The translations under genes were made by a program, and so were the position numbers. DNA of 33,563 nt from Lachnospiraceae bacterium (GTDB lineage: Bacteria > Bacillota > Clostridia > Lachnospirales > Lachnospiraceae), in the NCBI GenBank assembly GCA_021201095.1, contig JAJQFO010000234.1:1-33563 (forward strand). The letters are read 5' to 3'. The notes beneath the pieces were generated by a model. The model worked only from the letters and a program-made list of their open reading frames with translations. It was not told the origin of the DNA and ran no database searches. Below, piece after piece: positions 6,451-29,305 of this stretch. Numbering within the stretch: the stretch's first letter is position 1; every line of letters starts with the position of its first letter.

Positions 6451-6642
6451 ATCTGTTTTTTATTCATCTGCCATCCTCCCCCGCCCGTATTCCTGCATCT
6501 GCTTCTCACATACCCGGTTCCCCAGAAATTTCATTTTCCGTATCTGCCTTACCCATGGCTGAATTTCATGTGTCCGGATTCCATGCATTTGTATTTCCCA
6601 CATCTGTCCTTCCAACATCTGTCTTTTACGCATCTGCCATCC
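6451..6642. repeat. 26-bp direct repeat copying the 3' end of the adhesin gene
   Basis: Bases 6451-6476 and 6617-6642 match at 23 of 26 positions. The second copy encodes the last residues (MADA) and stop of the giant adhesin; the first gives ATG GCA GAT GAA TAA after GGGGGAGG. The stretch between them holds several degenerate CATCTG units. This looks like a local duplication of the gene end. I see no gene in 6194-6625. Confidence 0.7.
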
Positions 6643-9600
6643 ACCTCTTTCTCTCGTTGATCACCAATGCCGCGAGCATCAGCGCAATGCCTGCAAGTGT
6701 CGGCCATACAATACCGACGGACCCGGTCTGCGGCAGAGCATAGATAATCTCGTTCGCCATCTGGAACGATAAGGTATACAGAGTGTAAGGATCCGCGCTG
6801 CCTGTAACACTTCCGTTCCTTGTCGATGCCACATATACGGTATCTGTATCTCCCGTCGTCGATGCAGCAGGTGAAGTAGACGCATCGGTCAGACTAAAGG
6901 TATCCGTTTGCTGCTTCGCTTCCGGTATTGCAGTCCCGTCCGCCTCCTGCACCAGCGTCACACTGATCTTGGGAACATAAGTCCAGTTCGAGTCATCATC
7001 CGTCGTGGTTGAGTCATTCTCATATTTGATCGTAATCTTCCAGATGCTCTGGTTCAACTCGTAGCCGGACGGCGCAACGGTCTCTTTCAGATAATAGGTA
7101 CCCTCGGTGAACTGGCCGATATAAAGCTTTCCGACATCAGTATCTGTGGTGCTGATGCCAGTCGTGCTGCTGACAGATGCCCCGGACGTACCGCTTGCTC
7201 CATTCGTGACCAGAGCAGCCTCTGTCGTACAGGCCTCATCTGTGTAGAGTGTAAATTCCGCATTGGAAAGGTACGATACCGTGTTGTTGCTTGTACTGAT
7301 TTTGTACAGTGCCAGTTCATACAGAACCTGCGTGTTGGTCGCAGTCACCGACATGATCGAGGATGACGCGCCATCGCCGCCGGTTGTCTCTACACTGGTC
7401 ACGAAGCCGGTGAGCTTCTGAGTTCCTGTCACTGTGCCGTTGGCGTCCTTCACCGGTTCCACTGCTGCTTCTGTGACGTCGTATGAGATCGTGGTAGCGG
7501 AGGACCCATTTGAGCCCTTTGCCTGCAGCACCACCGTTCCAAGGGTCCAGGTCACGGTGCGGTTCTCTGTATCTTCCGCCACCGTCACCGTCGGGGAAGA
7601 AGAGACTGGCGTGCCATTTTTCGAAACACTGACGGTATTCGATGTGCTCCCCTGCGTCAATGTATACGTATCATTTACCACTGTCGTGACAGTCCCACTG
7701 TTATCCGTCGTCGTTCCCGTGACTGTAAAGGTTACCGCCGTTCCTTCTTCAATATTGCTTATGATGTTCTCCCACTCTTTTTCCATATTCAGATTGATGA
7801 AATAGAACCCGGCGTTCAGGTTTGCAACAACATAAGGATTTTCGGAGGGGCTTGTCGGCAGCACAATGCCGCCTGTGCCGCTTGCTGTATTTTCATCCAT
7901 TACGACCGCCTGTGCAAGAGCCGCCGCTCCGCCGCTGTCGCTTTCAGCGTCTGTGTCATAATTGTAGTCTGCCTGCGCTTTGTTGGTCGCACCGGACTGA
8001 CTCGGTTCGGTTGTCACACTGAGCTTCGAAAATTCAATCGGACAATCTGTAGTACCGGCCAGATAATAGCTGCCGTCGGTATCTTTGAACACCACATAAT
8101 AAGTACCTGCAAACAGGTTCTCAAAGGTGTAAGAACCATTCGAACCTGTACTCACCGGAGCCACCAAGAGCCTGTTGGTATTGATCACCGGATACACCGT
8201 TGTCCCGTTTAAAAGTGACAGTTTAGTAGAGTAAAGCGTCGTTTTCCCGTCGGTCCAGTAATCTCCTGTACTGTCCGTCCCTGTCTTTACATTGGTGTAT
8301 GTTCCCGTATCAGGCTCTGTACTAGAGTATAAGTACACTTCTATCCCTTCAAGCAGCTGATCCGCGGAGCTGAGCGAATTGTATATGCCGTCCTGATCCT
8401 GATCCAGCCATGCAATGCCGGTAATCTTCCGGTTTATGATACCTCTGCTACCCGCGCTTCCCAGAACCGTCGAATTCTTAACTGTGCCGCTGGAATATAC
8501 CCTGTAAAAAAGGTTATCCCAGTAGACATTGCCGCCCTGCTGTGTGGAGCCGCTTGTTGTATCTATAATCATCTCAGTTCCCGAGCTGCCATCATTTTCC
8601 ATCACCATCGGGGAAAGAGTCACGTCAATCGCGACCGTCGTTTTTCCGGACACATAAGGGATATAGAAATACAATCCGAGTCCGCTGCCGGTGGATGCCA
8701 TCTGCGTAAGCGCCTGCTGTGCCTCTTTCGATAGCATATAGGTGACAGAATACACACCATTCGAGGTATCAGTAGTATAAGCACTATACGTAAGCGCTGT
8801 GCCATTAGCATCAAGGTTATCCAGTACATCCCCCAGTTTGGACGTATCCGTACAATCATAACCCGAGCCGTACTTTATAATACCGCACGTGTTGGCTGTA
8901 TTACCGACCTCAGCCAGAAACTCATTATAACTTTCCGCATCCTCAAACGTCAGCTGAATGGATGTCACACGATATCCTCCAGTGAACGACGTCCCACGTT
9001 TATCTCCATTGTAGGGCAGGATATCTCCCAGCTCGATTGTCCTGGCGGTATCTGTTTCATTTTTATAATACAGATGAAACAGAAGATCCGTGCCCAGCTC
9101 CTGCGTACCCTTCGCTTCAATCCAGATCAGACTTCCCTCCGATCTGAGTACTGTAATGGTGGTCTCTGCTTCCTTCGCGTAGGTACTGATCTGACCAATC
9201 TCCTCATATTCAATATTGATCGTCGCCGTGGTTGTCAGTTTTTCTCCTGTGGGCACCTCGCCAGCCTCACCTGCAGCCGCGCCGGGTGTTCCAATGGTCG
9301 TGCTGTAGCTGACAGTAGGAAGCGTTTTGCTGATATCGGTCACATTGGTGCAGAGCGTAATCGTAGTCGTTCCGTCAGCGTTCTTTACATAAGTAATATC
9401 CCAGCCAAGTTCTCCCTCCTGATAATCTGTATCCTCCGTACCGTAGTTAAACTGGAGCGACCCTTCGTTGTAGGTCAGATACTCTGGCAGTGTAATCGTA
9501 ATCTCCACCTTCGCCGACTGCGTACCGTTTGAAACCAGCTCATTGGCGATGGAGCTGGACGAAGCAAGCGTCGGTGTGACAAGGAAGTTCGCCGTCCGTT

Positions 9601-12600
9601 CTCCCTGGCCGATGTCGTACTGTGATTTCGGCAGGTTGGAGCCTGCCACGGTATCTGTGACCTGGATCGCAATGCTGCTCTCCATCGTATAGAGCAGCAG
9701 GCAGTTTCCCGAATACCAGCCGGAATGTGTCCCTTCGACGGACCAGCCTCCGGAGTATTCCGTCTTTACATACTTGGGTTCATAGACCGCTATCTTGGCA
9801 AAATCACATTGAGAGCTGCAGCCGTAGCCGGATTTTTCTGTATATGCCTCTGCCGCAGCTTTGCAGGCAGCCTGAAGCGTTTCCACTCCGCCTGCTCCAT
9901 ATGCAGTCACGCCGCTGACTGTGTCATCATATACTGTATCACTCCAGGAATACTGGTAGGACAAATCAATCCTTGTCGTAGTTCCATGTGACAGGTCGTA
10001 CGTATACGCATCTTTGTAATCCGGCCGGTAAGTACTCCACCCCAGTACGTCGTTTGTGATGCACCAGGTCTGACCGGTTTTGTTAAAATCATTGGTGACC
10101 GTCATCTCTGAGGTCACGGTAATGCTGCGGCCGTTGCGGATACAGCAGTCCCGGAACTCATAGAGGATTCCTACACATACGCCTGTTGTTCCTTTCCCTT
10201 CAAAATAAGCATACAGATCGTCGAGCGATGCAAAATAGATCAGATTCTCCTCGCCATACTGATCCATCTCCGGCGCTGGAGAATCGTATCCGTCGAGATA
10301 ATCATCAGATTTTGTCCAGTTAGTCCCATCCGGCTTCGCAGCATACAGCACCGTAAGGTCATAGGTCGTTGTTTTCGTGCCGGACCAGGTCGTTGCCGAC
10401 TCGGTCGTCGTAACCTTATAGGTACCGGTCGGGGTATAGGCGTCCGCATCGAACTTCTGCAGCAGATTCACCGCTGTCAGGTAATTGTACTCAATGGCGC
10501 TGTCCTCCTGCGGGTCGTAGCCTTCCCGCGTCGTCGCGTCTATCGCGGCACTGCCAAAGTTGATATCACTTCCCATATAAACCGTAGAGCCAAGCGGTGT
10601 GGAAGCCGTGCCCCCCGAACCGGAAAGCTTGCTGTTCGAAGCGTTGTTAAAATAATTGGTCTTGACAATCGTTTCCCCACTGCCTGCCGTTATATAGAGA
10701 CCGGTCTGATTCCCTACATAATTATCCAGATAAACAATTTCATTAGTCGCATAGCCTGTATATGCCGATTCCCCATACCAGCTCACAAAATGCTGGAGAT
10801 CTTCATCCTCCGGATCAGACGTATCCGCTGACACGATCCCGCCTGGTCCCGGTGTCAGATTAAGCTCTGAAACAATCCCTTTCATATAGATAGACAGATA
10901 TCCGTAATCGTCTTCTCCCACATCATCCGTATCGATCGGATACAGCATCTGTATATATCCGGCGGAAAAAGCTCTCGAATAGTTATTGTCAAAAACTTCC
11001 GAGGAATTGCCGTCCGACGTCTGTGTCGGATTTTTGGTGCTGTATGTACTGTCGATCGTATAGCCGCTGACAGAAAACTGTATGGTGGTGGTGGTACCGG
11101 TTCCATCTGGCTGACTTCCTGTCGCACTCCATGCGCCGCCGGAATAACAGCTGGACGTATTGGAACCGCGTGTATTAAAGGGCGCGCCATCGTATGCGTA
11201 CTGCGTCGTACTGGACGAATCATCCTCATCATTCCAGTTCATGTTGACATTGCGCAGCTCGTCATTCAGGCTGCTGCCGCTCTCCGTGTTCTCATTGGCC
11301 TTATATGCCCAGACATAAGGAGCCGCATCTATCGACAGATCGCTGCCTTCTGCTGTAGAGGAAAGCGTACCGGTCATGGCGAGGCTAAATGTAATCTCTC
11401 CTTCCGGTATTTCAAGTCCTTTCATCCCTTTACCTGTGTCATCATTCCACATGGACAATGTGATGCCGTAGCCCAAGATCGTGCCGTAGATGATCGTCCC
11501 GTTATCTCCCTGAGTCTCGTAGGCTGTCTTTGTCGTCTCCTCCCCTGTAGCCATATCAAAATATCCTGTGTAGGCCAGTTCTGAATTCGGAAGCAGTGTC
11601 ACATTATATTTTCCGGCAGCGGATACCGTCACCGCTGTGGGATCCATGGTAACCGGTTTTTCCTTGTTTGCCGCATTTCCCTCGATCCAGGCCGAAAAGG
11701 ACGGTTCTACCGTCTCGCCATTTTTCATCGCTTTCACATAAATTGTAAGGTCAAATGATGCGTCATTCTTGGCCGCTTCCGGAACATCGGAGTATCCCAG
11801 AAGGATCAAGGATTTCCCATCCTCCGATTCTTCGACCTCATAAGAATCCAGGCCTCCGGCTGCTATGCTCATTTCCGCCTCATCAGATGAAAGAGGAAGT
11901 GTCACCTGCACGTAAAGCCGGACTGTTTTCTTTACATCACCTTCAACAGCACCTTCGAAGCCCAGCGTAGCATTACAATGGTAAGTAATGCTGTCAAACG
12001 TACGAACCAGACCGTTTGACTCATCTGAATCATTTCCGGCCGTCCAGTCGCCTGCCACGGCATTTTCCAGTGAAGTGGCACTCCAGGTGCTGACCGTCTC
12101 CGTTTCTCCGGTATCCATTGTGTAGCTGGTCGGTGTATAGGTGAGACCATCTGACTTGTCAAAGTTTTTCGTTCCGTCTGTAATTCCTTTTCCGGTCAGA
12201 GTGAGACTCGTTACCGTCAATTCTGTGGTCTCAACCGTAGTCGCCTCCGTATCCCCATATTTCTCCGCCGTCAGCATCAGGTTATAACTGGTCGTGATCT
12301 TTTCCGTAATATATTGTCCGTCTCCGACATACTCTGCCGTGCGGTTTGTTCCCGTGTAGGTATCGTCTTTCCACACGTTATACGATGCAGTATATCCCTC
12401 ATCCGTATAATCCATATCCGCCGCGCGAACAAGCGTAGCCGTCGGATAGTTTGTGCCACTGTAGGTATAGCCAGACTCGGATATGGAGTACACATCATTA
12501 CCCGCACTGCTTAAATTGGAAGTGTTGTCGCACAACACACCGCCGGTCATGGTAAAGGTCCCTGCCTGTGTCGGGTACTGCACCAGACCGCCGCCGTAAT

Positions 12601-15600
12601 CTGCGCTATTGCCCGTGATCTGACCGCCAGTCATTTTGATGGTGCCGTTGTATTGGTAGATACCGCCGCCTCGTATGGCTGAATTTCCCGTAATCTCCAC
12701 GCCTGTCTTTATGTTCAGCGTGCCGCTATTCATGTAAATGCCGCCGCCTGCACCAATTGAAGCATCCGTCAAAATACTGCCTGTGACAGAGTTATCCGTC
12801 ACTTTTATTGAACCTGAGAGCGTAACCGTACCGCTGTTTATATAGATTCCGCCGCCGCGTCCTGTGGCAGTGTTTCCTGTAATGGAGCCGCCTGTGAGCT
12901 TCGCTGTACCGGCATAGACATAGACGCCGCCGCCATAGCCGCTGTAAGTGTTACTGTCAATGTTTCCTTCCGCCTTGTTCCCGGTGATGGTGCCGCCTGT
13001 CATCTTAAAGGTGCCGTTTCTCATATAGACAGCGCCAAAGTAGGAAGTGTTATCCTCAATCACTGCATCTTCCTCGAGGATAAATGTTCCGGAGGTACCC
13101 GCTATATAAACTGCTCCGCCGTAGGATTTCGTTGAGCAGTTGTTGATTGACGCTGTGCCGCTGAGGACAAAAGTACCGTTCTCCACGTATACGCCGGCAC
13201 CGCCGTAGGAGGCATTGTTTTTCGTCGTGCCGCCCGCAGTACAGTTTGCAATCTGGCCGCTTACCATTGTCACATAGCCGCCGGAATATACCCGGATGCC
13301 GCCGCCAAGAGTCGCCGTCGTACCGGTGATGGTGCCGGTGTATGCCGTGTCAGACTCATCAGCACCCGCGCCTGTTTTTGTCGTCACACCACTTTCATCC
13401 AAATGCAGACTCTGATTGACATTTTTCAATGCTTCATAATGCTCGCAATAGGTCTCCTCGCCTGATGCGGCATCAGACTTATACTGCACATCCTTTATGG
13501 TAAGCGTACCATAGCACGTGATGGCTGTGGTATTTCCTGTCAGCGTGTAACCATTCAGGTTAAGTGTAAGCGTCTGGCCGCCGGAAATCTCCACATCGCC
13601 CTTCGCGTCGGACACCAAGATGATCTCAGGGTCTGCGATATCGTTTGTGTAGTAATATCCCGTACCATTCGTCTTATCCGCCAAAAGCGCATCCACTGCC
13701 GCCTGAACGGATGTAAATGTCTGATATCCGCCGCTGCCCTCATTTAGAGAGGTATCCCATATTACCGCAACCACTGTGTTCGTCTCATATTCCAGTGTAA
13801 ACGGATACATCTTCTTTACCGGGTCGTAGTCAATGGATGTGGTGGTCACGACACTGGTGGACTCGTTCAGCCAGCCGATCCCTGCCATACCCTCATCGTC
13901 ACCAAACATATCCTCAGCCTTAATGAGCGCAAGGGAAGTGTTCGCATAGCTTGAGCTGTATTCCGCGTAAACGTCCTGCCCCAAAATCGCCGTATTGCCG
14001 TAGACCTGACCCACAGTGTCAGCCCCACTTGCAGCATCTGTTCCAGTGCCCAGCTCAAATGACGCATAATTACTGGCAACATACACACCGCCGCCCTGAC
14101 CGCTCGCGGTGTTACCTGTCACCGTGCCGCCGGTCATAACCAGCTTATTATAATTTCCTACATAGATTCCGCCGCCGGAATCCGTTGTAATGGTAGATGT
14201 GTTATTATAAATCTTACCGCCGGTGATGGTATCCGTTGCGGCTTCACCATAGGTAACTGAGCTTATAGTTCCGCCTGTATATGTATTAGCACTTTCAACC
14301 AGGTACACGCCGCCGCCACGGGGTGCCGTGTTGTTATAGATTTCACCGCCTGTCATGTGAAAATCCGTGTACTGCGCGTAGACACCGCCGCCATAGGAAG
14401 CACCCGTGTTGTCATGTATCTTTCCGCCTTTTATGTTTAAGGTGCCGTAGCCATTGGCGTAGATTCCGGTGTTTCCGTTGTTCGCGATTTCCATGCCGTC
14501 CTCTATATTCAGGACATAAGAATCACGGCCGTTGTAGAAGCTGTTCGACTGTCTCATGTAGATGCCATAGCCGCTATTTCCCTTGATGGACGTGTTTTTT
14601 ATTGTGACAATCTCACCCTGGGCACTGTCACCTTGTGTAAGCAGCTCCATGCCATATCCGCTGTTTGAAGAAAAATTACATTCATCAAATGTCACATTTC
14701 CCTGAACCGACGAGCTGGTGTCTGCCACATACACCGCCCCGACGCTTGCGGCTGTTTTATTTCCTGTCACAGTTACATAGCTTACTTCAACAGATGAATT
14801 TGCAATGTTTATTACATTTCCGCTTGTGGTTGTCTCATTATCAGTGAAGGTACAGTTGCTTATCGTGCTGCCGCTTAACACCGTGCTTATATAAAGCGCG
14901 GAAGCATTCGTTGACGCTTTATTTTCTTTAAAAGCACATTCACTTACCGTGACTTTTCCGTTTGCCACAGAAAGGCCGGCATAGCCGCTGGCTGCCGTGT
15001 TTCCGGTAAATTCCGAATCTGTTATGACAACCTCTGCATAATTTAGGGTATTACTGCTCTGTGAAATGTACATACCGCCAAAGTTGCCCGTCGAAGCATT
15101 TTTCTCCACAGTACAGCTATCTATGGTAACGTCCATAACGTATACCAGATAAGCGCCGGCGCTTTCAGCAGCAGTGTTTTCTGTAATGGTCGTACCCTCC
15201 ATGGTAACCATAGGCCAGGATCCTTTGCTGCTAATATCCGTGCTGTTCCAGCCGGTTACATATATACCGCCGCCTCGATAGGCTGCGGTGTTGTCGCTTA
15301 TCTTGGCCTCACCTATTGTCAAAGCTTCTTTGTAGCCATTATTACCTGTGCCGCTGGCAGAAAAGAAGATTCCGCCGCCATGGTAGGCTGTATTTTCGCT
15401 TATAACAACGCCGTCCTTTATGGTCAGATAGTTATTGTAGCCTTTTGAATAAATTCCGCCGCCCTGATAGGCGCAGCAGTCTGTGATCATTGTATTACCT
15501 TGCAGTGTAACAGAGTTATAGCTGTCCGCGTAAATTGCGCCTCCGGCGTAAGTGCTGCTGTAGCTTTCACTTGCATAAGCTTCGTTTCCAAAGCCGGTAA

Positions 15601-18600
15601 TCACGACACTGTCAACGATAAGATATGTTTCATAGGTACTGCTTCCTGATGCCATATAGATGCCGCGTGGGAAGTCGCTTAAATTCGATGAAGCTTTCGT
15701 GATGGTGCCTGCTGCATCTGTTTCCGTGTTTACAAAAGCATTCGTAGCCGTGCTTTGTATGGTAAGTGTCATGGAAACATTTTTATCGTACTTTATATAA
15801 ACCCCGTATTCTCCCGTGGAATAAAGAGTGTATCCGTTTAAGTCTATAGTCAGACTCGCCCTGTCTGCAACACCCGTGACGCTTACGCTCTCATATACGT
15901 CCGTGAGAAGATAGATGGTGTCGTTATTTCCGGCTGCGTTTATGGCACCCTGAAGTGTGGAGTAGGCGGTTCCGGCTTTGGATGTCACTGTGCTGCCTGC
16001 ACTCTGTGCTTCAGCAGCAGCAGTTGAATCCATCGTGTAGGAATATATCGTACTGCCGGTTTCTGAATCCGTGGTCGCAACCTGATATACGGTATTGCTA
16101 CTGCTGTCATTCGGAATGTATGCCACATAGCCGCCGGAGTAGTACGTGGCGGTGAGAGCAAAATCATGCTCGCTCGCCAAACTCACGCCGCTAATACTTT
16201 CTGTATAGTAATTTGGATAAGTGCTGTCATCCCCATTCGAATCAAACCAGCTGTTATAGGCATCATTTCCCATACTGACTGCGGCCAGAATGCTGATACT
16301 TCCGCCTTTCACTTTCGCGTAAATGTCATTTCCCGTGTTGCTGGTGGCGGTATTTCCGTAAATCCCTGCAGCATCACTGACGGTCAGACTGGAGTTTGTA
16401 TTATTGCTGTATAATCCGCCTCCGGTCACAGCGGTATTGCCTGTGATCAATCCACCTGTTACAGTGACTATACTTGTACTGTTCACAAAGATACCGCCGC
16501 CATTGGACGTGGCAGTATTGCCCGTAATACTTCCGCCGCTGATTTCAGCATTTAAATAGGTGCTGTACAAGTATACTCCGGCACCGCTCCCCGCCTTGTT
16601 GCCCGTGACAGAACCGGAGATCATGGTAAAATTGGGATCTGACGTGGTATAGGTCGAATTTGTGTACCCGCTCACCACGTAAACACCGCCGCCGTTATTT
16701 GTGGCGGTATTTGACGCAATCGTGCCTCCGTCAAGTGTAAATGTACCATTAGCTGTCACAAACACGCCGGCACCCAGCGCAGTCGTATTCCCGCATATTG
16801 TACCGCCCTTTAATATAGCGCTTCCGCAAACCAGGAGACCACCGCCGCAGTAAGCATTGGTTGTGCCAATGTAATTAAAATATGTTCCGTCACCGCCTGT
16901 GATGGTTCCTGTACCCTCCGTACTTCTGTCATCTATGATCAGGCTTGCGCCTGTTTCTACAGTAATTACGCTTTTTAAAAGTCCGGTAAGCGTACAGCCT
17001 GCCAGATCAAGCGTGACACTAACGCCCGCAGGGATGGTTATATCCTCGCGACTGTCGTCCAGCATAATGATGGTAATGGTATCATTCGAGCCATTTTCTG
17101 TTCCATACTTTGAAGCCGTGTCACCTGCCACAGCATCTACCGCCGCCTGAACAGAAGTGAAGGTTTCGTATTCGCCATTTCCGCTGTTAAGCGCAGTATT
17201 CCATATTTCTGCTATTGCTGCCCCAGTCTCCTTGTATATAAGTGTGTAATAATGGCCTGCTTCTTGTGACGAGCTGCTGCTCTCAGTGTTGAATGCTTCT
17301 TCATTGGTAGTGTCCCCCACCTCATCATACCAGGAGACACCGGTTATACCGTTTGCGGAATCTGTAAAGGTAGATGCCGCGCCCACCGTCATAAGTGCGT
17401 AACTGCCTGAATTTCCATTATAAGTACCGGAAGCGTTCACACTGGTGCTGCTATACCCCAGAGCCAGATCGTTGCCGTAATTGACAGCGGTTGCCGTATT
17501 GTCATATATGATACCCGACTTTCCATCCGCAATCTTTATCGTCGCGCTCTGCTTCACATAGCCGACGATATACACACCGCCGCCACGCTGCGCCGTGTTT
17601 CCTGTGATGGTTCCTCCATTAAAAACAAACAAATCCGTCCAGTATATACCGCCGCCGTAAGAGTAGGCTGTATTATCATATATTTCCACATCGTCTATAT
17701 ACAGGATGTTTATATATGAACTGGCATATATGCCTCCGCCGCTGCCGGTTCTGGCGGTATTATTATAAATCTTTCCTCTGGAGATATGACTCGCCACATT
17801 TGTGTCTGCACTGTTTCCTTGTGCGTCATAGATACCGCCGCCATTTGCGGCGCTGTTGTTATAAATCTCTCCGCCTTCCATCGTGACTTTTAAGGCAGCC
17901 ACACCGCCGCCGGAGCTTGTCGCGTAATTATCATGGATTTTTGCGCCATCCGCTATTTTTACTTCATATCTGCCGTAGACACCGCCGCCGTGCAGCCCAC
18001 ATGTGTTGTCAAAAATTTCCACGCCGTCATGCAGGTAAACCGTGCCGGTCGAATTGCTGCTGGAATAGATTCCTCCGCCGCCGTAATTACTTCCTTTCGC
18101 GTAGTTTTCGTAGATTTTGATGTTGCCCGACAGATCCATTCCGCCGGAGTCAACGCTTAAGCCGCCGCCGTTTGTTCCCGCGCTGTTTCCATTAATATTC
18201 ACATAACCGGTAGAAACTATGGCATAACTTGTTGATGTGCTCGAGTATGCACCGCCGCCCACGCCGGCTGTACATATATTGTTGCTAATGTAAATTGCCG
18301 TGGCTTCACTGTCTCCGCCGGTAAGCGTAAGCTTCCCTTGCGTGTAAATACCGCCGCCGGCATTATATGCTGTGTTGCCGTCTATTTTTGCTGCATCCTT
18401 TAGAACCAGGGACGAGGCTGCCGTTGTGACATAGAAAGCACCGCCGTAGTAGTCGGAGGTATTCCCGCTATATTTACCGCCGGAGACAACTACATCTCCC
18501 ACGCTGCTTGCGCCTATCCAGATACCGCCGCCATAGCCTGTGTTAGCCGTGGCAGATGCGACAGCTTTATTTTCTGAAACGGTAAGATCTGTCAGGGTGA

Positions 18601-21600
18601 TACTCTGTACATAGGTATTTACAGCGATACCGCCGCCATAGGTAGCGCCCGAGTTGCCTGAAACGGTTGTGTTCTCCATCGAAACTTTGGCATAGCTTCC
18701 GATATAGATACCGCTGCCGTAGCTATTGGTAGAATCCGTGCTGGTAAGCTTATTCCCTGAAATCTCACCGCCGGTGGACGTAAAGGTACTCCTGTAGCTA
18801 TTTGCGCTGTTTAAGTAAATACCGCCGCCGTACATGGCGCCTGCGGCTGAAATTTTGTTGTTGTTAATTTTGGTTGTATTAGTTTCGGAATTTTCCAGAG
18901 TCAGGCTTGTGCCCGAGGTGAGCCAGATACCGCCGCCGTAGCCAGCTGCGGAGTTACCCGATATGCTGGAGCCGCTGATGGCAGCTGTAGGAACAGCCAC
19001 GGCAAAATAAGCGCCGCCGCCCGCTGCGCCTGATGTGTTGCCATCAATGATTGCGTCTACTATGTTTAGAGTAGTAACCGTCGCGCCAAAATAGACACCG
19101 CCACCCTCACTGGTGGATGTGTTTCCTGAAATGGTTGATGAAATGGTGAGTGTTTCCAGCACTGTATTAAAGTAAACGCCGCCGCCATAACCGCCGGATT
19201 TGTTGCCGCTGATGGTCAGACCGCTTTGAAGAGTCAGCGCAGAGCTGGAGGCAGTATTGGCCGCTAAGCCGCCGCCTGAGAGGCTGGAGGTGTTGCCAGA
19301 TATAGTTCCCCCCGTCATGGAAGCTATCAGATTAGCATCATAGAGGAACACACCGCCGCCGTAGCCGCTCGCTGTGTTGTCAGATATGGTTCCACCCGTC
19401 ATGGCAAATGTTCCGCCGTTTTCCACCAGAACACCGCCGCCGTTACCGCCGGCTGAGAAGCCGGTGATGGTACCGCCCTCAAGGGTAAATGAACCGCCCT
19501 GCGCCACGTCAACGCCGCGGGCGTTACTGTACCCGTTATTTGTCACCTTACCACTACCGGCTGTACTGGTGTCTGTAAGGGTGAGAGTACCGAAAACTGT
19601 AATAGCATTTTTGCCGGTTCCCGCGGATGTGATGGTGTGACCGTTCAGGTCGATCGTGACCTTCACGCCATCCAGGATCATCAGATCTTCTGTGTAGTCC
19701 TGATTGAGTGTGATCGTTGTACTGTTCTCAGTAATTTCGTCACCGAGCGATGCCGTTGCGATGCCGCCTTCACCCGCAGTGCTGATCCCGCTGTCTGTAT
19801 CCGATGATAATAGAGCGTTGATCTGCCCCTGCAGGGTATCCGGATCATCCTCCGCAGCGGCCGCCGCCAGCTGCTCATAGGAAGCCACCGCCAGCATTTC
19901 CTCGCTGAAATAATACGCCTCGCCGTCCTCGGCAAATGTCACCTGTACCGTTGTCTTATAGTCCGCATTTGCCGTCACAGTAAACGCCGTCGTATCCGCA
20001 TCGTAGGCCGCGATCGTATTCCCCTCTTCATCCAACACGACAGCGCAGACATACGCATAGCCGTCATACGCTGTCACGGAAACCTCGACCGGCTCTGTCA
20101 CCGGCATGTTGACTTCAACGTCATAATCATCGCTCATCATATATGGCGAAATCGTCTCTGTATAACCGTCTGTATAGGTCAGGCAGATTTCGCCGCCCTC
20201 AGAGACCTCGTAGGCGATGAAATTGTACGCTTCCTCTTCTGTCTCTGTCTTGATCTCCGTTTCTGTTTCGGTCTCAGTCTCCTTTTCCGTCTCCGTTTCG
20301 ATCTCAGTTTCTGTTTCGCTCTCAGTTTCCGTATCCGTCTCAGCTTCAGTCTCTGTTTCGCTTTCTGTCTCTGTCCCCGTTTCCTTCTCTGAATCCACCT
20401 CAGTCTCCGATACAGTTGCACCCTTCGTATCTGTCTCCGTCTCTGCCTCGGTTTCTGTCTCACTCTCAGCTTCTGTCTCACTCTCAGTTTCCGTCTCCGC
20501 CTCGGTCTCGTTCTCCGCCAGCAGTTCCTCATTCTTCCACTTAATGATGGTCTGGTCTTCCGCCGTATTCGTAACCTGCTCCCCATCCACAAAATATAGA
20601 GCCGGCAGCTCGTCTGTTGTGGTGATTCCTTCCGCAATCGCCGCGTAGAAAACATACGTTTCCTCTTCTCCGCCGGCGATGGTCTGATCCGCCCAGACAA
20701 CAGCCGAAGCATACGGCTCCAGAACTTCTTCTGCACTTTTTGCAGCATTTGTATGATTTTCCACGTACTCTGCCAGCTCGTCCAGATCATACTTCTCCGG
20801 CACGTCCGTCAGATCCGAAATATCCTCAATAAAATACAGTGCATCCGTATCATCGTCCCGCTCATACCAGGACAGATTCTCCCCGAGCACTGCCTTCACA
20901 GTCACAGCCTCAGCGTCCGCATCCGCTGTCGTATTCGTTATTGTAATGGTATATTTAACCGCAAAAATATCATCTTCATCCGTATCGATGAAAATTTCCT
21001 GCTCAATCTTTGTTTTTAAAGCGTAATCCACCCCCCCCGACTTCGTCATTTTCTGACTCAGAGGTGAGTGCTGTATCCGTTTCTCCTGGCTGTGTCTCTG
21101 TATCTGCCGCCGCAGGGTCACTGCTGTCTCTGTCCGTATCGGAGGAGACTTCCTTCTCGCTCTCCGATGTTTCGGAAGCCGCGGAGGCTTCTGTCTCTGT
21201 CTGCGCACCTGCCGTCGTTTCGGATGCGGTACCCGTCTGCGATGCGGTCTCTGCGGATGCCGCAGCCGACTCTGACGTTTCTGCTGTTGTCCCCGTCTGC
21301 GCCGATGCTGCCGCATCCTGCTCCGTCGTCTGGCCTGTCGTTTCTCCTGCCGCTTCTGTCTGGGCTGCAGTTCCTGTCTGTGCTGCCGTTTCTGTGACCG
21401 TCTCTGCCTGCGTTGTGGTTTTTGCGGCTGATTCCGTCTGCGACGTCGTATCTGCGGCCGCTGCCTCTGTCTGCGCCGTGGTTTCTGCGGTTGCCCCGGT
21501 CTGTGCCGTAGTCTCTGCCGTTGCCACATCGGTCTGTGCTGTCGTTTCCGTCTGTGCCGCCGTCTCTGCGGCCGCTTCCGTTTGTTCATTGGTCTCCGCT

Positions 21601-21869
21601 GTAGTTTGCGTCTGTGCGGTCGTTTCCGCCGCCGCTTCTGACGACCCACTGCCTGATGATCCGGCTGCATCAGAAGAAACAGACTCTGTCTCCGACACGC
21701 TCACAGCCGCAGTCGCTTCCACATCTATATCAGAGCTGACCTCCGTCTCCGCCGCCAAAGTGTCCGTTGTCACAAGCGCACCAAAAGACTGGTTGCTCAA
21801 AATCATGGCAACCACCAGCAGCCAGGCCAGCCTTCTTTTCCATTTCCTGCAGCAATTACTTTCTTTCAT
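6626..21869 (-). CDS. Giant LPxTG beta-helix adhesin, about 5,080 aa, interrupted by a frameshift at a G8 tract
   Basis: Start is the ATG at 21869, with AGAAGGA six bases upstream. Residues 1-40 are an export signal (MKESNCCRKWKRRLAWLLVVAMILS...), then an ETTAQT-rich stalk to about residue 275. At 21031-21038 (eight G on the coding strand) this frame runs on to a stop after LRFKNKD (288 aa), while the rest continues in another frame from VDYALKTKIEQEIFID to 6626. Removing one G makes 15,243 bases, exactly 5,081 codons. Downstream are a DUF11-like domain, an ETESETE stalk, four beta-helix modules with roughly 45 GGG(V/I)Y turns (about residues 670-3120), a large beta-rich region with scattered cysteines, an SdrD-like domain (ITGIAWLDQDQDGIYN), CnaB and SpaA domains (E-box YYLKETVAPSGYELN), then LPQTG, a helix and KRKR-type tail. 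Likely a pilus tip or cell-wall adhesin. Confidence 0.88.
12330..19840 (-). repeat. Four duplicated beta-helix modules in the adhesin
   Basis: Each module opens with a cap of the form TLQxxINA or FTSVQAAVDA, then LDLNGxTLTG, followed by rungs of the type GGTISGNTA..GGGVY. Openings lie near 19,830, 17,170, 15,960 and 13,720 (minus strand). Modules 2 and 4 share a linker: IWNTALNSGNGEYETFTSVQ and IWDTSLNEGSGGYQTFTSVQ. The middle of module 3 lacks the triple-Gly turns and instead has CAFKEN, CTFTDN and CNFSSN, the FxxN pattern of polymorphic outer-membrane-protein (Pmp) repeats. Glycine turns show on the plus strand as frequent ccgccgcc. Confidence 0.85.
20229..20513 (-). repeat. Glu/Thr/Ser low-complexity stalk
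   Basis: About 95 codons of alternating Glu with Thr, Ser or Ala (ETETESETEAESETE style), encoded by near-repeats of GAAACAGAGA/GAGACAGAA. It separates two folded domains and probably acts as an extended, acidic spacer. Such tracts can change length by recombination. Confidence 0.8.
21031..21038 (-). repeat. G8 homopolymer at the frame break of the adhesin gene
   Basis: Eight C on the plus strand (eight G on the coding strand), followed by TGGATTACG. With 8 G translation stops after about 288 residues; with 7 or 10 G it joins the 4,800-residue downstream frame; with 9 G it stops within a few codons (WITL then stop). It is the only break in an otherwise open 15-kb gene. Confidence 0.9.
21190..21640 (-). 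repeat. ETTAQT-type repeat stalk
   Basis: About 150 codons built on variants of AETTAQT (AETAAQTETT, AETTAQTEAA, AKTTTQAETV), just after the signal peptide. It is low-complexity, Ala/Thr/Glu/Gln-rich and lacks Cys and aromatics, like wall-spanning regions of surface proteins. The opposite strand is open for 346 codons here only because of the repeat's composition. Confidence 0.8.
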
Positions 21870-25550: not shown

Positions 25551-27389
25551 ATGAGCAGACTGAGCATCATCACGAACAACAAAGCCCAGACGACGGTAGA
25601 ATCGCTCTACAAGGATCTGGAGCGGCGGATCAGCGCCAGCCCGCCAGGCCTGTGCCCGGTGGATCTGGCCGCGTCTTTTCTGAAAATGTGCCACGCCCAG
25701 TCCTGCGGAAAATGTGTTCCCTGCCGCATCGGCCTGGGGCAGCTGCAGGATCTGCTGGAAATGGTGCTGGACGGCAAAGGGACTCTGGAGACCATTGATC
25801 TGATTGAAAAGACAGCGCAAAACATCTTTTATTCCGCGGACTGTGCCATCGGCTACGAGGCAGCCAACATCGTCCTCAAAGGCCTGCGTGGCTTCCGCGA
25901 CGACTTTGAGGAGCACGTGCTGCGCCACAGGTGCAAATGCGAGCTCTACCAGCCTGTGCCCTGCGTGTCGCAGTGTCCGGCCGGGGTGGACATTCCCGGC
26001 TACGTCGCACTGGTGGCGGAAGGCCGCTACGGCGACGCGGTACGGCTGATCCGCAAGGACAACCCGCTCCCCGCTGTATGCGGACGGATCTGCGAGCATC
26101 CCTGCGAAGTGCGCTGCCGCCGGACATTGATTGACGATCCGGTCAATATCCGCGGCCTGAAGCGTTTCGCCGTGGACCATGCAGGCGAGGTGCCGCTCCC
26201 GGTACCTGCGGCGTCGACCGGCAAAAAGGTCGCCGTCATCGGCGGCGGTCCCGGAGGCATCAGCGCGGCGTATTACCTGACGCTGATGGGCCATAAGGTA
26301 ACGATTTTCGAGCAGAGAAAACAGCTGGGCGGCATGCTGCGCTACGGCATTCCGAATTACCGTCTGCCGCGCGAAGAGCTCGACCGGGAAATCAATCAGC
26401 TCTTAAGCCTGGGGATCGCTGTAAAAACAAACGTGACCGTCGGAGAAAATCCCAGCATTGTGGATTTGAGAAAAGAATATGACGCCGTCTACATCGCGAT
26501 CGGTGCGCACACTGACCGCAAAATCGGTATCGAGGGCGAGGACGCGAAGGGCGTGATCTCTGCCGTGGAGCTGCTGCGCGGAATCGGCGACAACGAAATG
26601 CCTGATTTTACCGGCAAGAGCATCGTCGTGATCGGCGGCGGAAATGTGGCGATGGATGTGGCCCGCTCAGCCGTGCGTCTCGGCGCAAGGCGTGTGCGCA
26701 TCGCCTACCGGAGAAGGTCGGTCGATATGACCGCCATGCCGGAGGAGGTCGAGGGCGCCATTGAGGAGGGCTGCGAGCTTCTGGATCTGCACGCGCCGCT
26801 TCGCATTGAGAAGGACGCCGAAGGAAAGGTTGCGGCGCTCTGGGTACAGCCGCAGATCATCGGACCAATGAAAAACGGACGGCCGACACCGGTCAATTCC
26901 TCCAACGACGAGGTACGGCTCCCCTGCGACATCGTATTGGTAGCCATCGGCCAGGGCATTGATTCCAGAGCCTTTGAGAAACAGGGCATTCCTGTCAAAC
27001 GCGGCGTCATTGAGGCTCTGAACTGGAGCGGGGTAAACGCAAAGGACCTCACCGGCGTATTTGCCGGAGGCGACTGCGTGACCGGCCCTGCGACTGTGAT
27101 CCGCGCCATCGCGGCAGGCAAGGTCGCGGCGGCGAATATTGACGAGTTTCTCGGGTATCAGCATCTGATCTCCGCGGATGTGGAGCTCCCGCAGGTGCGT
27201 CTGGACGACCGGAAAAACTGCGCCCGCATCAATCTCAAGGAGCGTCAGGCCTCCGACCGTGCCAGGGATTTCGAGCCCGTCGAATGCGGCATGACCTGTG
27301 AAGAAGCCAACCAGGAGGCGCGCCGGTGCCTGCGGTGCGATCATTTCGGCTACGGAGCGTTCAAAGGAGGGAGGACCGAGCAATGGTAA
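25551..27389 (+). CDS. NuoF/GltD-like FAD and Fe-S NAD(P)H oxidoreductase, hydrogenase partner subunit
   Basis: 612 residues from the ATG at 25551 (AAGGAGTG nine bases upstream; a TTG at 25548 is possible). Three parts are visible. Residues 45-110 resemble the Fe-S end of NuoF (SCGKCVPCRIG with Cys 52, 55, 58 and a later DCAIGY). A GltD-type N-terminal Fe-S region follows (CVSQCPAGVDIPGYV, CGRICEHPCEVRC). Then come two nucleotide-binding folds, VAVIGGGPGGISAAYYL for FAD and IVVIGGGNVAMDVARSAVRL for NAD(P)H, with AGGDCVTGPATVIRAIAAGK near the end of the flavoprotein domain. It overlaps hydA by 7 bases (ATGGTAA), so translation is coupled. By analogy with GltD-linked [FeFe]-hydrogenases it should pass electrons between NAD(P)H and HydA, possibly by flavin-based bifurcation; this is inferred. 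Confidence 0.88.
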   Translation: MSRLSIITNNKAQTTVESLYKDLERRISASPPGLCPVDLAASFLKMCHAQSCGKCVPCRIGLGQLQDLLEMVLDGKGTLETIDLIEKTAQNIFYSADCAIGYEAANIVLKGLRGFRDDFEEHVLRHRCKCELYQPVPCVSQCPAGVDIPGYVALVAEGRYGDAVRLIRKDNPLPAVCGRICEHPCEVRCRRTLIDDPVNIRGLKRFAVDHAGEVPLPVPAASTGKKVAVIGGGPGGISAAYYLTLMGHKVTIFEQRKQLGGMLRYGIPNYRLPREELDREINQLLSLGIAVKTNVTVGENPSIVDLRKEYDAVYIAIGAHTDRKIGIEGEDAKGVISAVELLRGIGDNEMPDFTGKSIVVIGGGNVAMDVARSAVRLGARRVRIAYRRRSVDMTAMPEEVEGAIEEGCELLDLHAPLRIEKDAEGKVAALWVQPQIIGPMKNGRPTPVNSSNDEVRLPCDIVLVAIGQGIDSRAFEKQGIPVKRGVIEALNWSGVNAKDLTGVFAGGDCVTGPATVIRAIAAGKVAAANIDEFLGYQHLISADVELPQVRLDDRKNCARINLKERQASDRARDFEPVECGMTCEEANQEARRCLRCDHFGYGAFKGGRTEQW

Positions 27390-29305
27390 ATGTGACAATC
27401 AACGGAAAACAATACAAGGTACAGGACGGTTCCACCATCCTCGAGGCTGCCAGATCGGTCGGCATCCACATTCCCACCCTCTGCTATCTGAAGGATATCA
27501 ACAGCATCGGCGCCTGCCGCGTCTGCGTGGTCGAGGTCGAGGGCTGTGCAAAACTGGTTGCTGCCTGCAACAATCAGGTCTGGGAGGGAATGGTTGTACA
27601 TACAAACAGTCCCAAGGTCCGCGAAAGCCGCCGCAACACCGTCGAGCTGATCCTTTCCCAGCATGACGGCCAGTGCGCGACCTGCGTCCGCAGCGGCAAC
27701 TGTACCCTGCAGACGATCGCGAATGATCTGGGCATTGTCGAGCTTCCCTTCCGCAAGAAAGTGCCGAAGTTCGAATGGCCGAAACGCTTCCCGCTGGTCC
27801 GTGACGCCAGAAAATGCATCAAATGCATGCGCTGCGTACAGATCTGCGACAAGGTGCAGGGCATGCACATCTGGGACGTCTCCGGCACCGGCTCCCGAAC
27901 AACCGTGGACGTCTCCCAAAACCGGATGATCAAGGAATCCGACTGCGCCCTCTGCGGCCAGTGCATCACCCACTGTCCGGTAGGTGCCCTCCGCGAATGG
28001 GACGACACCGACCGGGTACTGGATGCCCTCGCGGATCCGGACAAAATCACCGTTGTGCAGATCGCTCCCGCCGTGCGTGCGGCCTGGGGCGAAGCCTTCG
28101 GCCTCTCTCCGGAATTTGCCACCGCCAAACGCCTGGTGGCCGCCCTGCGGCAGATGGGCTTCGACTATATTTTCGACACCAATTTCAGCGCCGACCTGAC
28201 CATTATGGAGGAAGGAAGCGAGCTGATCGAGAAAATCAAGAGAGCTGCGGGGCAGGAAAAATTCCCTCTCTTTACCTCCTGCTGCCCCGGATGGGTGCGT
28301 TTCCTGAAATCGCAGTATCCGGACATGGTTGACCAGCTCTCTACGGCAAAATCACCGCAGCAGATGTTCGGCGCGATCACCAAATCCTACTATGCGCAGC
28401 TGCTCGGCGTAGACCCGTCCAGGATCTATTGCGTCTCCATCATGCCCTGCGTGGCAAAGAAGCACGAATGCGCGATTCCAGGGATGAATGACGGCGCACG
28501 CGTTAGCCAGATGGAGCAGGTGAATGCCTCCGATCCTGGCCAAAACAGTACAGCAGAAAAGCCCCTCGTCCCGGATGTTGACGTGGTGCTGACCACCCGC
28601 GAGGTCGACCGCCTGATCCGTGCGGAGCAGATTCGCCCGGAAATGCTGCCTGAGGAGGAATTCGACATGCCCCTCGGCGTCGGCTCCGGCGCCGGCGTGA
28701 TCTTCGGCGCGACCGGCGGTGTCATGGAGGCCGCCCTGCGCAGCGCCTACTATCTGGTCACCGGAAGAAACCCGGATCCGGATTCTTTCAAAAAAGTAAG
28801 AGCTATGGAAGCGCCCCCTCGCTCCGCTTCGGCGGATATCCCGCCCGAAGGGCGAGGATGCCACCCGGCGAGGGCAGATCGCGTCAGCCATGCTGAAAAC
28901 GCTTCGCGTTGGGCTGACGCTATGAATGGCTGGAAAGAAGCGGAATTCAACCTCGCCGGAACCCAGCTGAAGGTTGCAGTCGTCAGCGGCCTCGGGAACA
29001 CCCGCAAGCTGATCGAAGCACTCCGCAGAGGAGATGTGAGCTATCACTTTGTAGAAGTCATGGCCTGTCCGGGCGGCTGTGCCGGAGGCGGCGGACAGCC
29101 GATCAAGGACGGTGAAGAGCGTGCCTCTGACCGATGCGACGTGCTCTACGGTCTGGACAAAATCAACCAGCTGCGCTATTCGCATGAAAACCCGGCTGTG
29201 AAGCAATGCTATCAGGATTATCTCGGAGCGCCGCTCTCACACAAGGCACACGAGCTGCTGCACACCGATCATCACGCATGGCAAATGCCGCAGGAAACAA
29301 CATAA
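27383..29305 (+). CDS. hydA: [FeFe]-hydrogenase catalytic subunit with an in-frame insertion
   Basis: 640 residues from the ATG at 27383, with GGGAGG eight bases upstream. Cofactor sites in order: [2Fe-2S] Cys 34, 45, 48, 62; His-Cys3 cluster H94, C98, C101, C107; two [4Fe-4S] clusters (C145-x2-C-x2-C-x3-C155 and C188-x2-C-x2-C-x3-C198); H-cluster motifs TSCCPGW (298-304), MPCVAKKHE (354-362) and MACPGGCAGGGGQP (560 on); then the small-subunit-like end. All H-cluster cysteines (300, 356, 562, 566) are present, so the enzyme should be active in making or oxidising H2. Residues 476-514 are an extra 39-residue segment encoded by a palindromic element (see 28808-28924). A second, shorter family-atypical stretch lies near NASDPGQNSTAEK. 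A strong terminator follows. Confidence 0.95.
   Translation: MVNVTINGKQYKVQDGSTILEAARSVGIHIPTLCYLKDINSIGACRVCVVEVEGCAKLVAACNNQVWEGMVVHTNSPKVRESRRNTVELILSQHDGQCATCVRSGNCTLQTIANDLGIVELPFRKKVPKFEWPKRFPLVRDARKCIKCMRCVQICDKVQGMHIWDVSGTGSRTTVDVSQNRMIKESDCALCGQCITHCPVGALREWDDTDRVLDALADPDKITVVQIAPAVRAAWGEAFGLSPEFATAKRLVAALRQMGFDYIFDTNFSADLTIMEEGSELIEKIKRAAGQEKFPLFTSCCPGWVRFLKSQYPDMVDQLSTAKSPQQMFGAITKSYYAQLLGVDPSRIYCVSIMPCVAKKHECAIPGMNDGARVSQMEQVNASDPGQNSTAEKPLVPDVDVVLTTREVDRLIRAEQIRPEMLPEEEFDMPLGVGSGAGVIFGATGGVMEAALRSAYYLVTGRNPDPDSFKKVRAMEAPPRSASADIPPEGRGCHPARADRVSHAENASRWADAMNGWKEAEFNLAGTQLKVAVVSGLGNTRKLIEALRRGDVSYHFVEVMACPGGCAGGGGQPIKDGEERASDRCDVLYGLDKINQLRYSHENPAVKQCYQDYLGAPLSHKAHELLHTDHHAWQMPQETT
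28808..28924 (+). mobile_element. 117-bp palindromic element inserted in frame in hydA
   Basis: GCTATG occurs at 28802-28807 and again at 28919-28924, 117 bases apart, as a target duplication would. The DNA between is rich in dyads: CCCTCGC/GCGAGGG (28816-28822 and 28868-28874), CGCCC/GGGCG (28842-28846 and 28850-28854), CCGC/GCGG (28824-28835) and GCGTCAGCC/GGCTGACGC (28881-28889 and 28912-28920) with AACGC/GCGTT inside. Removing the 39 codons rejoins VRAM to NGWKEAEFNLAG, matching the family pattern VRGLEGIKEAEIDLNG. The inserted peptide is Arg/Pro/Ala-rich and unlike the rest of HydA. No second copy is in this window. Confidence 0.75.

Follow-up and report, generated by a model that had tools for sequence, protein, structure and literature searches.

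The window, by which we mean the whole stretch of 33,563 nucleotides analysed from a Lachnospiraceae bacterium (contig JAJQFO010000234.1 of assembly GCA_021201095.1), carries the gene of an [FeFe]-hydrogenase, HydA, inside which a short piece of hairpin-forming repeat DNA is found with the reading frame kept (Table 1). When the protein was compared to the NCBIfam models, the top one was that of the NADH-dependent group A6 [FeFe] hydrogenases, with 747 bits, a score that narrowly misses the cut-off of the model (765). The alignment to the solved electron-bifurcating HydA1 (8a6t_A) stops at residue 476 of the query and restarts at residue 514. The insert is 117 nt long (about 28805-28924) and lies between two GCTATG repeats placed 117 nt apart. 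An earlier analysis of this DNA, made from its letters only (hereafter the sequence-only reading), had described an in-frame palindromic insertion of 117 bp in this gene, and repeats, spacing and position in the frame were found to be as described; the fold, of -60 kcal/mol (z -3.03), was better than those of 198 out of 200 shuffles and was equalled by the other two.

HydA of the window contains another in-frame loop expansion, at residues 370 to 397 approximately (28490-28575), which is hydrophilic, of variable length and, as far as read, not palindromic. Hydrophilic in-frame expansions of variable length, also not palindromic as read, are present near residue 290 in the HydA proteins of loci L061, L071, L137, L062 and L069. 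A giant surface protein is probably encoded on the minus strand of the window (6626-21670) by an ORF of 5014 aa, in which right-handed beta-helix and SpaA-like domains were recognised.

Table 1. Features of hydA and of the element inserted in it (positions in the window).
Feature	Position	Strand	Basis
hydA, [FeFe] hydrogenase, 640 aa, carrier of the insert	27383..29305	+	group A6 is the best NCBIfam match
Left GCTATG	28802..28807	+	GGN codon replaces GCT in 17 empty relatives
Palindromic element, long form, 115 nt (GGAAGCGCC...GACGCT)	28807..28921	+	R1 match, 135.7 bits (the window copy is itself one of the 12 rows of R1)
5' module, common to the short (GA-cis) form	28807..28835	+	sequence comparison of copies
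Nested hairpin cassette, 39 nt (13 codons)	28836..28874	+	115 minus 76 nt; end-less copies elsewhere in the genome
3' module, terminal hairpin and conserved end GCT	28875..28921	+	copy alignment, base pairs
Co-varying terminal stem, 5' arm (GCGTCAGCC)	28881..28889	+	pairing, co-variation
Conserved inner hairpin AACGC-TTC-GCGTT	28898..28910	+	base pairs
Co-varying terminal stem, 3' arm (GGCTGACGC)	28912..28920	+	pairing, co-variation
Right GCTATG	28919..28924	+	GCT is the conserved element end; ATG repeats the left ATG

Ends and modules of the element

The ends of the element were set at GGAAACGCC and GCT because the flanks differ between copies. The element proper thus measures 115 nt, and the extra DNA relative to the empty HydA site amounts to 117 nt in total. 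As regards the terminal inverted repeats and the constant target-site duplication that mark a MITE of a DDE transposon, no clear terminal repeat was seen by eye between the ends GGAAACGCC and GCGCT, and the duplication is of 3 bp in the window and of 0 in L062. The GCTATG pair, regarded by the sequence-only reading as direct repeats flanking the insert, is present, but it does not exceed chance, given that 15 exact 6-mer repeats at spacing 117 were counted in the window as compared to 8.5 expected. In the empty HydA genes of relatives, the place of the GCT of the window is taken by a Gly codon (GGN) in 17 cases out of 17, followed by ATG in 11, including L074. The GCT of the left repeat is therefore not ancestral, and the target duplication consists at most of ATG. 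Empty sites, which the sequence-only reading proposed to look for with a single GCTATG, exist in 17 genes, with GGN for GCT in all of them. A regular target-site duplication made of GCTATG was rejected, since the flanks vary among copies and the empty relatives have GGN; no consistent duplication was seen, ATG being repeated at the HydA site of the window and nothing at that of L062. The claim that removal of the insert restores the family sequence exactly needs a slight correction: the segment is absent from 17 of the 20 HydA genes compared, but residue 474 is Ala in the window, where Gly occupies this position in at least 90% of 33 aligned rows (the row of the window counted).

A scan of the window copy against Rfam gave a match to GA-cis on the minus strand (28803-28924) with 26.9 bits, below the gathering score of 34.7. 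We read the window copy as the GA-cis core, i.e., the short form, plus a nested hairpin cassette of 39 nt, and this cassette would be what lowers its GA-cis score under the cut-off. The middle cassette also occurs without the ends of the element: 22 of the 56 matches in the genome of the window are confined to positions 29-85 of the query, although two of them (L016 and L017) are full variants according to R1, a model derived from 12 long copies.

Among copies, the inner hairpin and the 5' module show conservation, and the terminal hairpin shows strong co-variation. In the 12 long copies, double changes with the pair kept were observed at 10 of the 35 predicted pairs. The 137 short copies contain 91 different outer arms, which pair at 9.23 positions out of 10 with their own partner and at 7.18 with swapped partners (G-T pairs allowed).

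Copies in the genome of the window and in its relatives

Many dispersed copies of the element were found. The search of the genome from which the window derives, in which 40 of 126 candidates were scored, yielded 56 matches to the insert, 14 of which (window included) at E below 1e-19, so that the further copies anticipated by the sequence-only reading do exist. When the GA-cis RNA model (RF02987) was used, 30 matches, 26 of them over the cut-off (34.7), were obtained in this genome and none in 14 control genomes; the own-genome copy counts are slightly inflated, since this is a draft genome with 5.35% contamination and one copy occurs twice with identical flanks (contigs C9 and C36). The core element corresponds to the Rfam family GA-cis RNA, to which the short form is assigned by score, and the HydA copy of L062 has 48.6 bits as compared to the gathering score of 34.7. 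GA-cis is listed as a cis-regulatory RNA lying upstream of genes, and its source paper is presumably Weinberg 2017. No paper naming "GA-cis RNA" or "GA-cis motif" was found among the open-licence PMC papers.

The distribution of the family is patchy. GA-cis matches were present in 24 of 47 genomes of the genus, in 22 of 299 of the family and in 5 of 391 of the class, the sole one outside the family being below the cut-off (stricter filters were applied and the counts are hence lower bounds; the own genome is counted in each). The relatives in the carrier clade that have names are uncultured Lachnospiraceae or Clostridiales MAGs. A plasmid- or phage-borne repeat was discarded, since no similar copy was found at E 1e-3 in 72,556 plasmid records and 50,697 phage records. 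In genomes G038 and G042, GA-cis copies (L171, L172, L188, L189, L193-L201) lie within a larger composite palindromic repeat, several of them near contig ends. An autonomous parent element was considered for the near-identical copies of these two genomes, which sit in the composite repeat and share repeat flanks, and was not retained.

Filled and empty sites and the genic context of copies

Empty sites were found at three genes. At the nucleotide level, 17 of the 20 HydA genes are empty and three are filled, with 117 nt in the window, 147 nt in L061 and 75 nt in L062. The insert of L061 contains a further hairpin and is 10 codons longer than the window copy, and that of L062, in the short form, exceeds the GA-cis cut-off; one site of a catalytic gene thus offers a natural series of inserts of 25, 39, and 49 codons. 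In the HydA tree the three filled genes do not form one clade: L062 is placed among empty relatives, and the window and the empty L074 are sisters (98/87), with L061 adjoining. The inserts of the window and of L061, the latter being nearly that of the window, have the same ends and the same 3' arm; these two look like one event and L062 like a separate one. Since L074 is empty though sister to the window, and the more distant L061 is filled, loss, allele exchange or repeated insertion is needed; if the window and L061 inserts are one event, the empty L074 must derive from loss or allele exchange. In L074 (G008:C158), hydA is divided into two ORFs by an apparent frameshift near codon 99.

The TatD gene of genome G015 has 75 extra nt, and that of G018 is contiguous across the same site. 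A class I tRNA synthetase, which we take to be IleRS, has 24 extra residues in G010 and none in G007, G011, and G014. The class I tRNA synthetase of G016 has a different insert. Ala/Gly/Asp-rich loop expansions, similar to the variable loops of HydA, are also seen in the tRNA synthetase of the clade of the window.

Model R1 gave 188 matches, of which 107 came from 80 loci and 81 from 60. Of these rows, 164 were carried forward and, after removal of 2 identical ones, 162 copies remained; the 24 rows not used comprised 8 that repeated matches of overlapping loci, 3 that were partial, and 13 that were weaker or of odd length. Based on a coding-context score, which was trained on eight genes of the window including hydA, with a cut-off of our own choice, and which would under-count gene-killing insertions, 48 copies are in frame and free of stops, 1 is in frame with a stop, 4 are on the same strand out of frame, 1 lies between opposite strands, 51 have one coding side, 53 have no coding side, and 4 are at contig edges. 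The 48 in-frame copies include orthologues and paralogues, about 41 being left after merging evident pairs by eye; they use all six frames of the element, with 27 on the element strand and 21 on the other. Among the copies of the own genome, only 14 of 43 were scored in frame. The number of open frames per copy was on average 4.33 out of 6, as compared to 3.02 in mononucleotide shuffles (highest shuffle 3.35). The proposal that a small mobile palindromic element tolerates translation and enters genes in frame in the manner of the Rickettsia elements is thus supported by the 56 own-genome matches, the empty sites, the absence of the segment from most HydA relatives compared and the 48 stop-free in-frame copies.

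In-frame use was observed in many unrelated genes, those of glycosidases among them. When 20 of the proteins with an in-frame copy were searched with Pfam, a domain match spanned the insert in six of them (L271, L253, L240, L252, L239, and L235), the domains being those of a class I tRNA synthetase, TatD, UvrD (helicase type), CobW, lacto-N-biose phosphorylase and rhamnosidase. A broad AAA match also spans the insert in L232; L160 gave no Pfam match, and in the remaining 12 proteins none of the best stretches listed covers the insert, which is located between them or beyond them. AAA-ATPase-like proteins (assigned by Pfam for L150 and L257, by likeness for L146, L154, and L242) repeatedly contain elements, which in L146 and L154 are at the same site. 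Within an ORF of L263 (685-2601), the element separates EF-G domain IV and C-terminal domains from a YacP-like NYN domain located after them.

Origin of the insert and comparison with known repeats

The insert in hydA is very probably a copy of a small non-autonomous mobile palindromic element with a core of about 75 nt, belonging to the GA-cis family and kept in frame as a loop. Such an element would spread through the genomes of one Lachnospiraceae clade, and its copies would persist within genes where the added length is divisible by three; thanks to the scarcity of stop codons in every frame of the element, they would be read through as an Arg/Ala/Pro-rich loop. The window copy would hold, nested within it, another palindromic repeat, 13 codons long, and its sister copy in another genome has 10 codons more. 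We infer that copies spread by insertion of hairpin DNA, with the enzyme supplied in trans; no transposase linked to the element was found when Y1 transposases were surveyed in 47 genomes of the genus. The hydrogenase with the insert presumably stays active, and the loop is likely to be neutral. The constraint on the hairpin and the lack of a strong strand preference inside genes suggest that the fold matters at the DNA level.

If GA-cis were a cis-acting RNA regulator upstream of genes, the intragenic copies would be accidents. The conserved fold agrees with this explanation, as does the fact that, in other Lachnospiraceae genera, 25 of 40 copies are followed within 60 nt by the start codon of an ORF measuring 70 aa or more; in 7 of the 40, an ORF extends across the copy (both counts with no chance control). 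It is nonetheless unlikely in view of the copies in the clade of the window, which a reading of GA-cis as regulatory RNA does not fit: they use all six frames and both orientations (27 and 21) in unrelated genes, they form a tandem array in L203 (G012:C52) with a spacing of 78 nt, that is 26 codons, and they are polymorphic at orthologous sites and patchy in distribution. A REP-type element mobilised by a tyrosine transposase of the Y1 (RAYT) type, which the hairpin shape, the tandem copies and the high copy number recall, is still less probable. The Y1 domain is found in 14 of the 24 genomes with a GA-cis match, but also in 11 of the 23 without it, so that no co-occurrence is seen and Y1 was rejected as the mover; 10 of the 24 carriers have no Y1, including G008, G010, G015, G016, and G020 with 23-55 copies, and the own genome has one partial Y1 match.

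There is hardly any likelihood that a loop of HydA expanded in the ordinary way, without the involvement of a mobile element: other variable loops, not palindromic in appearance, do exist in HydA and in the tRNA synthetase of the clade, but the presence of the same DNA at many unrelated places, and of the exact ends and the co-varying stem of the element in the insert, refutes it. The insert might instead have been taken into use and affect how active or stable the hydrogenase is, or which partners it has. Two HydA clades have this site occupied, and a Rickettsia palindromic element in guanylate kinase is described as changing substrate affinity with respect to an element-free control (PMC2229807). 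Against this, the insert is absent from most of the HydA relatives compared (17/20) and is of a different length and sequence in each of the three carriers, which makes such a use quite improbable.

A doubtful, though not negligible, addition to the mobile-element reading is that, at insertion, the target serves as the template for the outer arm of the terminal hairpin. The conserved inner hairpin would snap back and prime synthesis of the complement of the target, and each copy would then consist of target, inverted target and body, with the native target coming after it. In the other genera, the outer arm resembles the ribosome-binding site that comes right after its own copy: 27 of the 40 copies (8 having been dropped as tandem and 5 as near-duplicates) scored 7.52 as compared to 5.81 upon swapping (sd 0.23; no more than 6.67 in 1000 swaps), and 22 copies (the 27 minus tandem copy L378 and four near-duplicates) scored 7.73 as compared to 6.01, with 0 of 1000 swaps as high. 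In L375 and L377 the repeats are long and exact. Against copying, the upstream flank is slightly raised too (4.91 vs. 4.43, 5/1000), and the arm does not equal the target at HydA and TatD. In the clade of the window, the arm-to-left-flank signal fell from z 6 (117 of 162 copies) to z 3.1 (107 copies) when tandem-copy remnants were removed more strictly. Target copying was set aside as the main reading, as these remnants confound the signal.

With respect to the sequence-only reading, the identity of the core with Rfam GA-cis and the second, nested palindromic cassette in the window copy are new. Among the protein-coding palindromes of which we found descriptions, most belong to Rickettsiales; a similar load is seen here in a clade of gut Lachnospiraceae, and it affects enzymes as conserved as the [FeFe] hydrogenase and a class I tRNA synthetase. 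No literature on such elements in this bacterial group was found among open-licence PMC papers. Since filled and empty sites coexist in near relatives, the cost and the fate of the inserts can be followed directly.

Rfam treats GA-cis as an RNA; the core element reaches its gathering score (26 own-genome copies and the HydA copy of L062), whereas the polymorphic intragenic copies point to a dispersed DNA element, which suggests that a family listed as RNA consists of mobile DNA elements. The REP elements of the GTAG and CGTC families are likewise short hairpins present in many copies, and some are reported inside genes (PMC3733652); the element described here is longer and shows no tie to Y1 transposases. 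PARCEL repeats are described as palindromic and protein-coding, with Coprococcus eutactus among their hosts, and as tandem amphipathic repeat domains (PMC2996958). By that description (PMC2996958) they are set apart from our element, which occurs as single insertions in housekeeping genes.

The palindromic elements of Rickettsia are described as in-frame palindromes in unrelated genes (PMC2229807; PMC10969869; PMC3733652), with a size of 105-146 bp (PMC2229807). Like these elements and their Wolbachia equivalents, the one found here is palindromic, of similar size, hairpin-forming, and located both between genes and in frame in unrelated protein genes. We know of no enzyme that mobilises the Rickettsia elements. 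The element of the window differs from them, as far as a comparison by description goes, in its 75-nt core matching Rfam GA-cis, in the co-varying terminal stem, and in the nested cassettes with lengths that are multiples of three; moreover, its host belongs to another phylum, being a lineage of Lachnospiraceae MAGs and not of Rickettsiales. The hallmark of the Rickettsia elements, namely a dispersed palindromic repeat found in frame in unrelated protein genes, is displayed also by the element in hydA, which in this sense works like them in another phylum.
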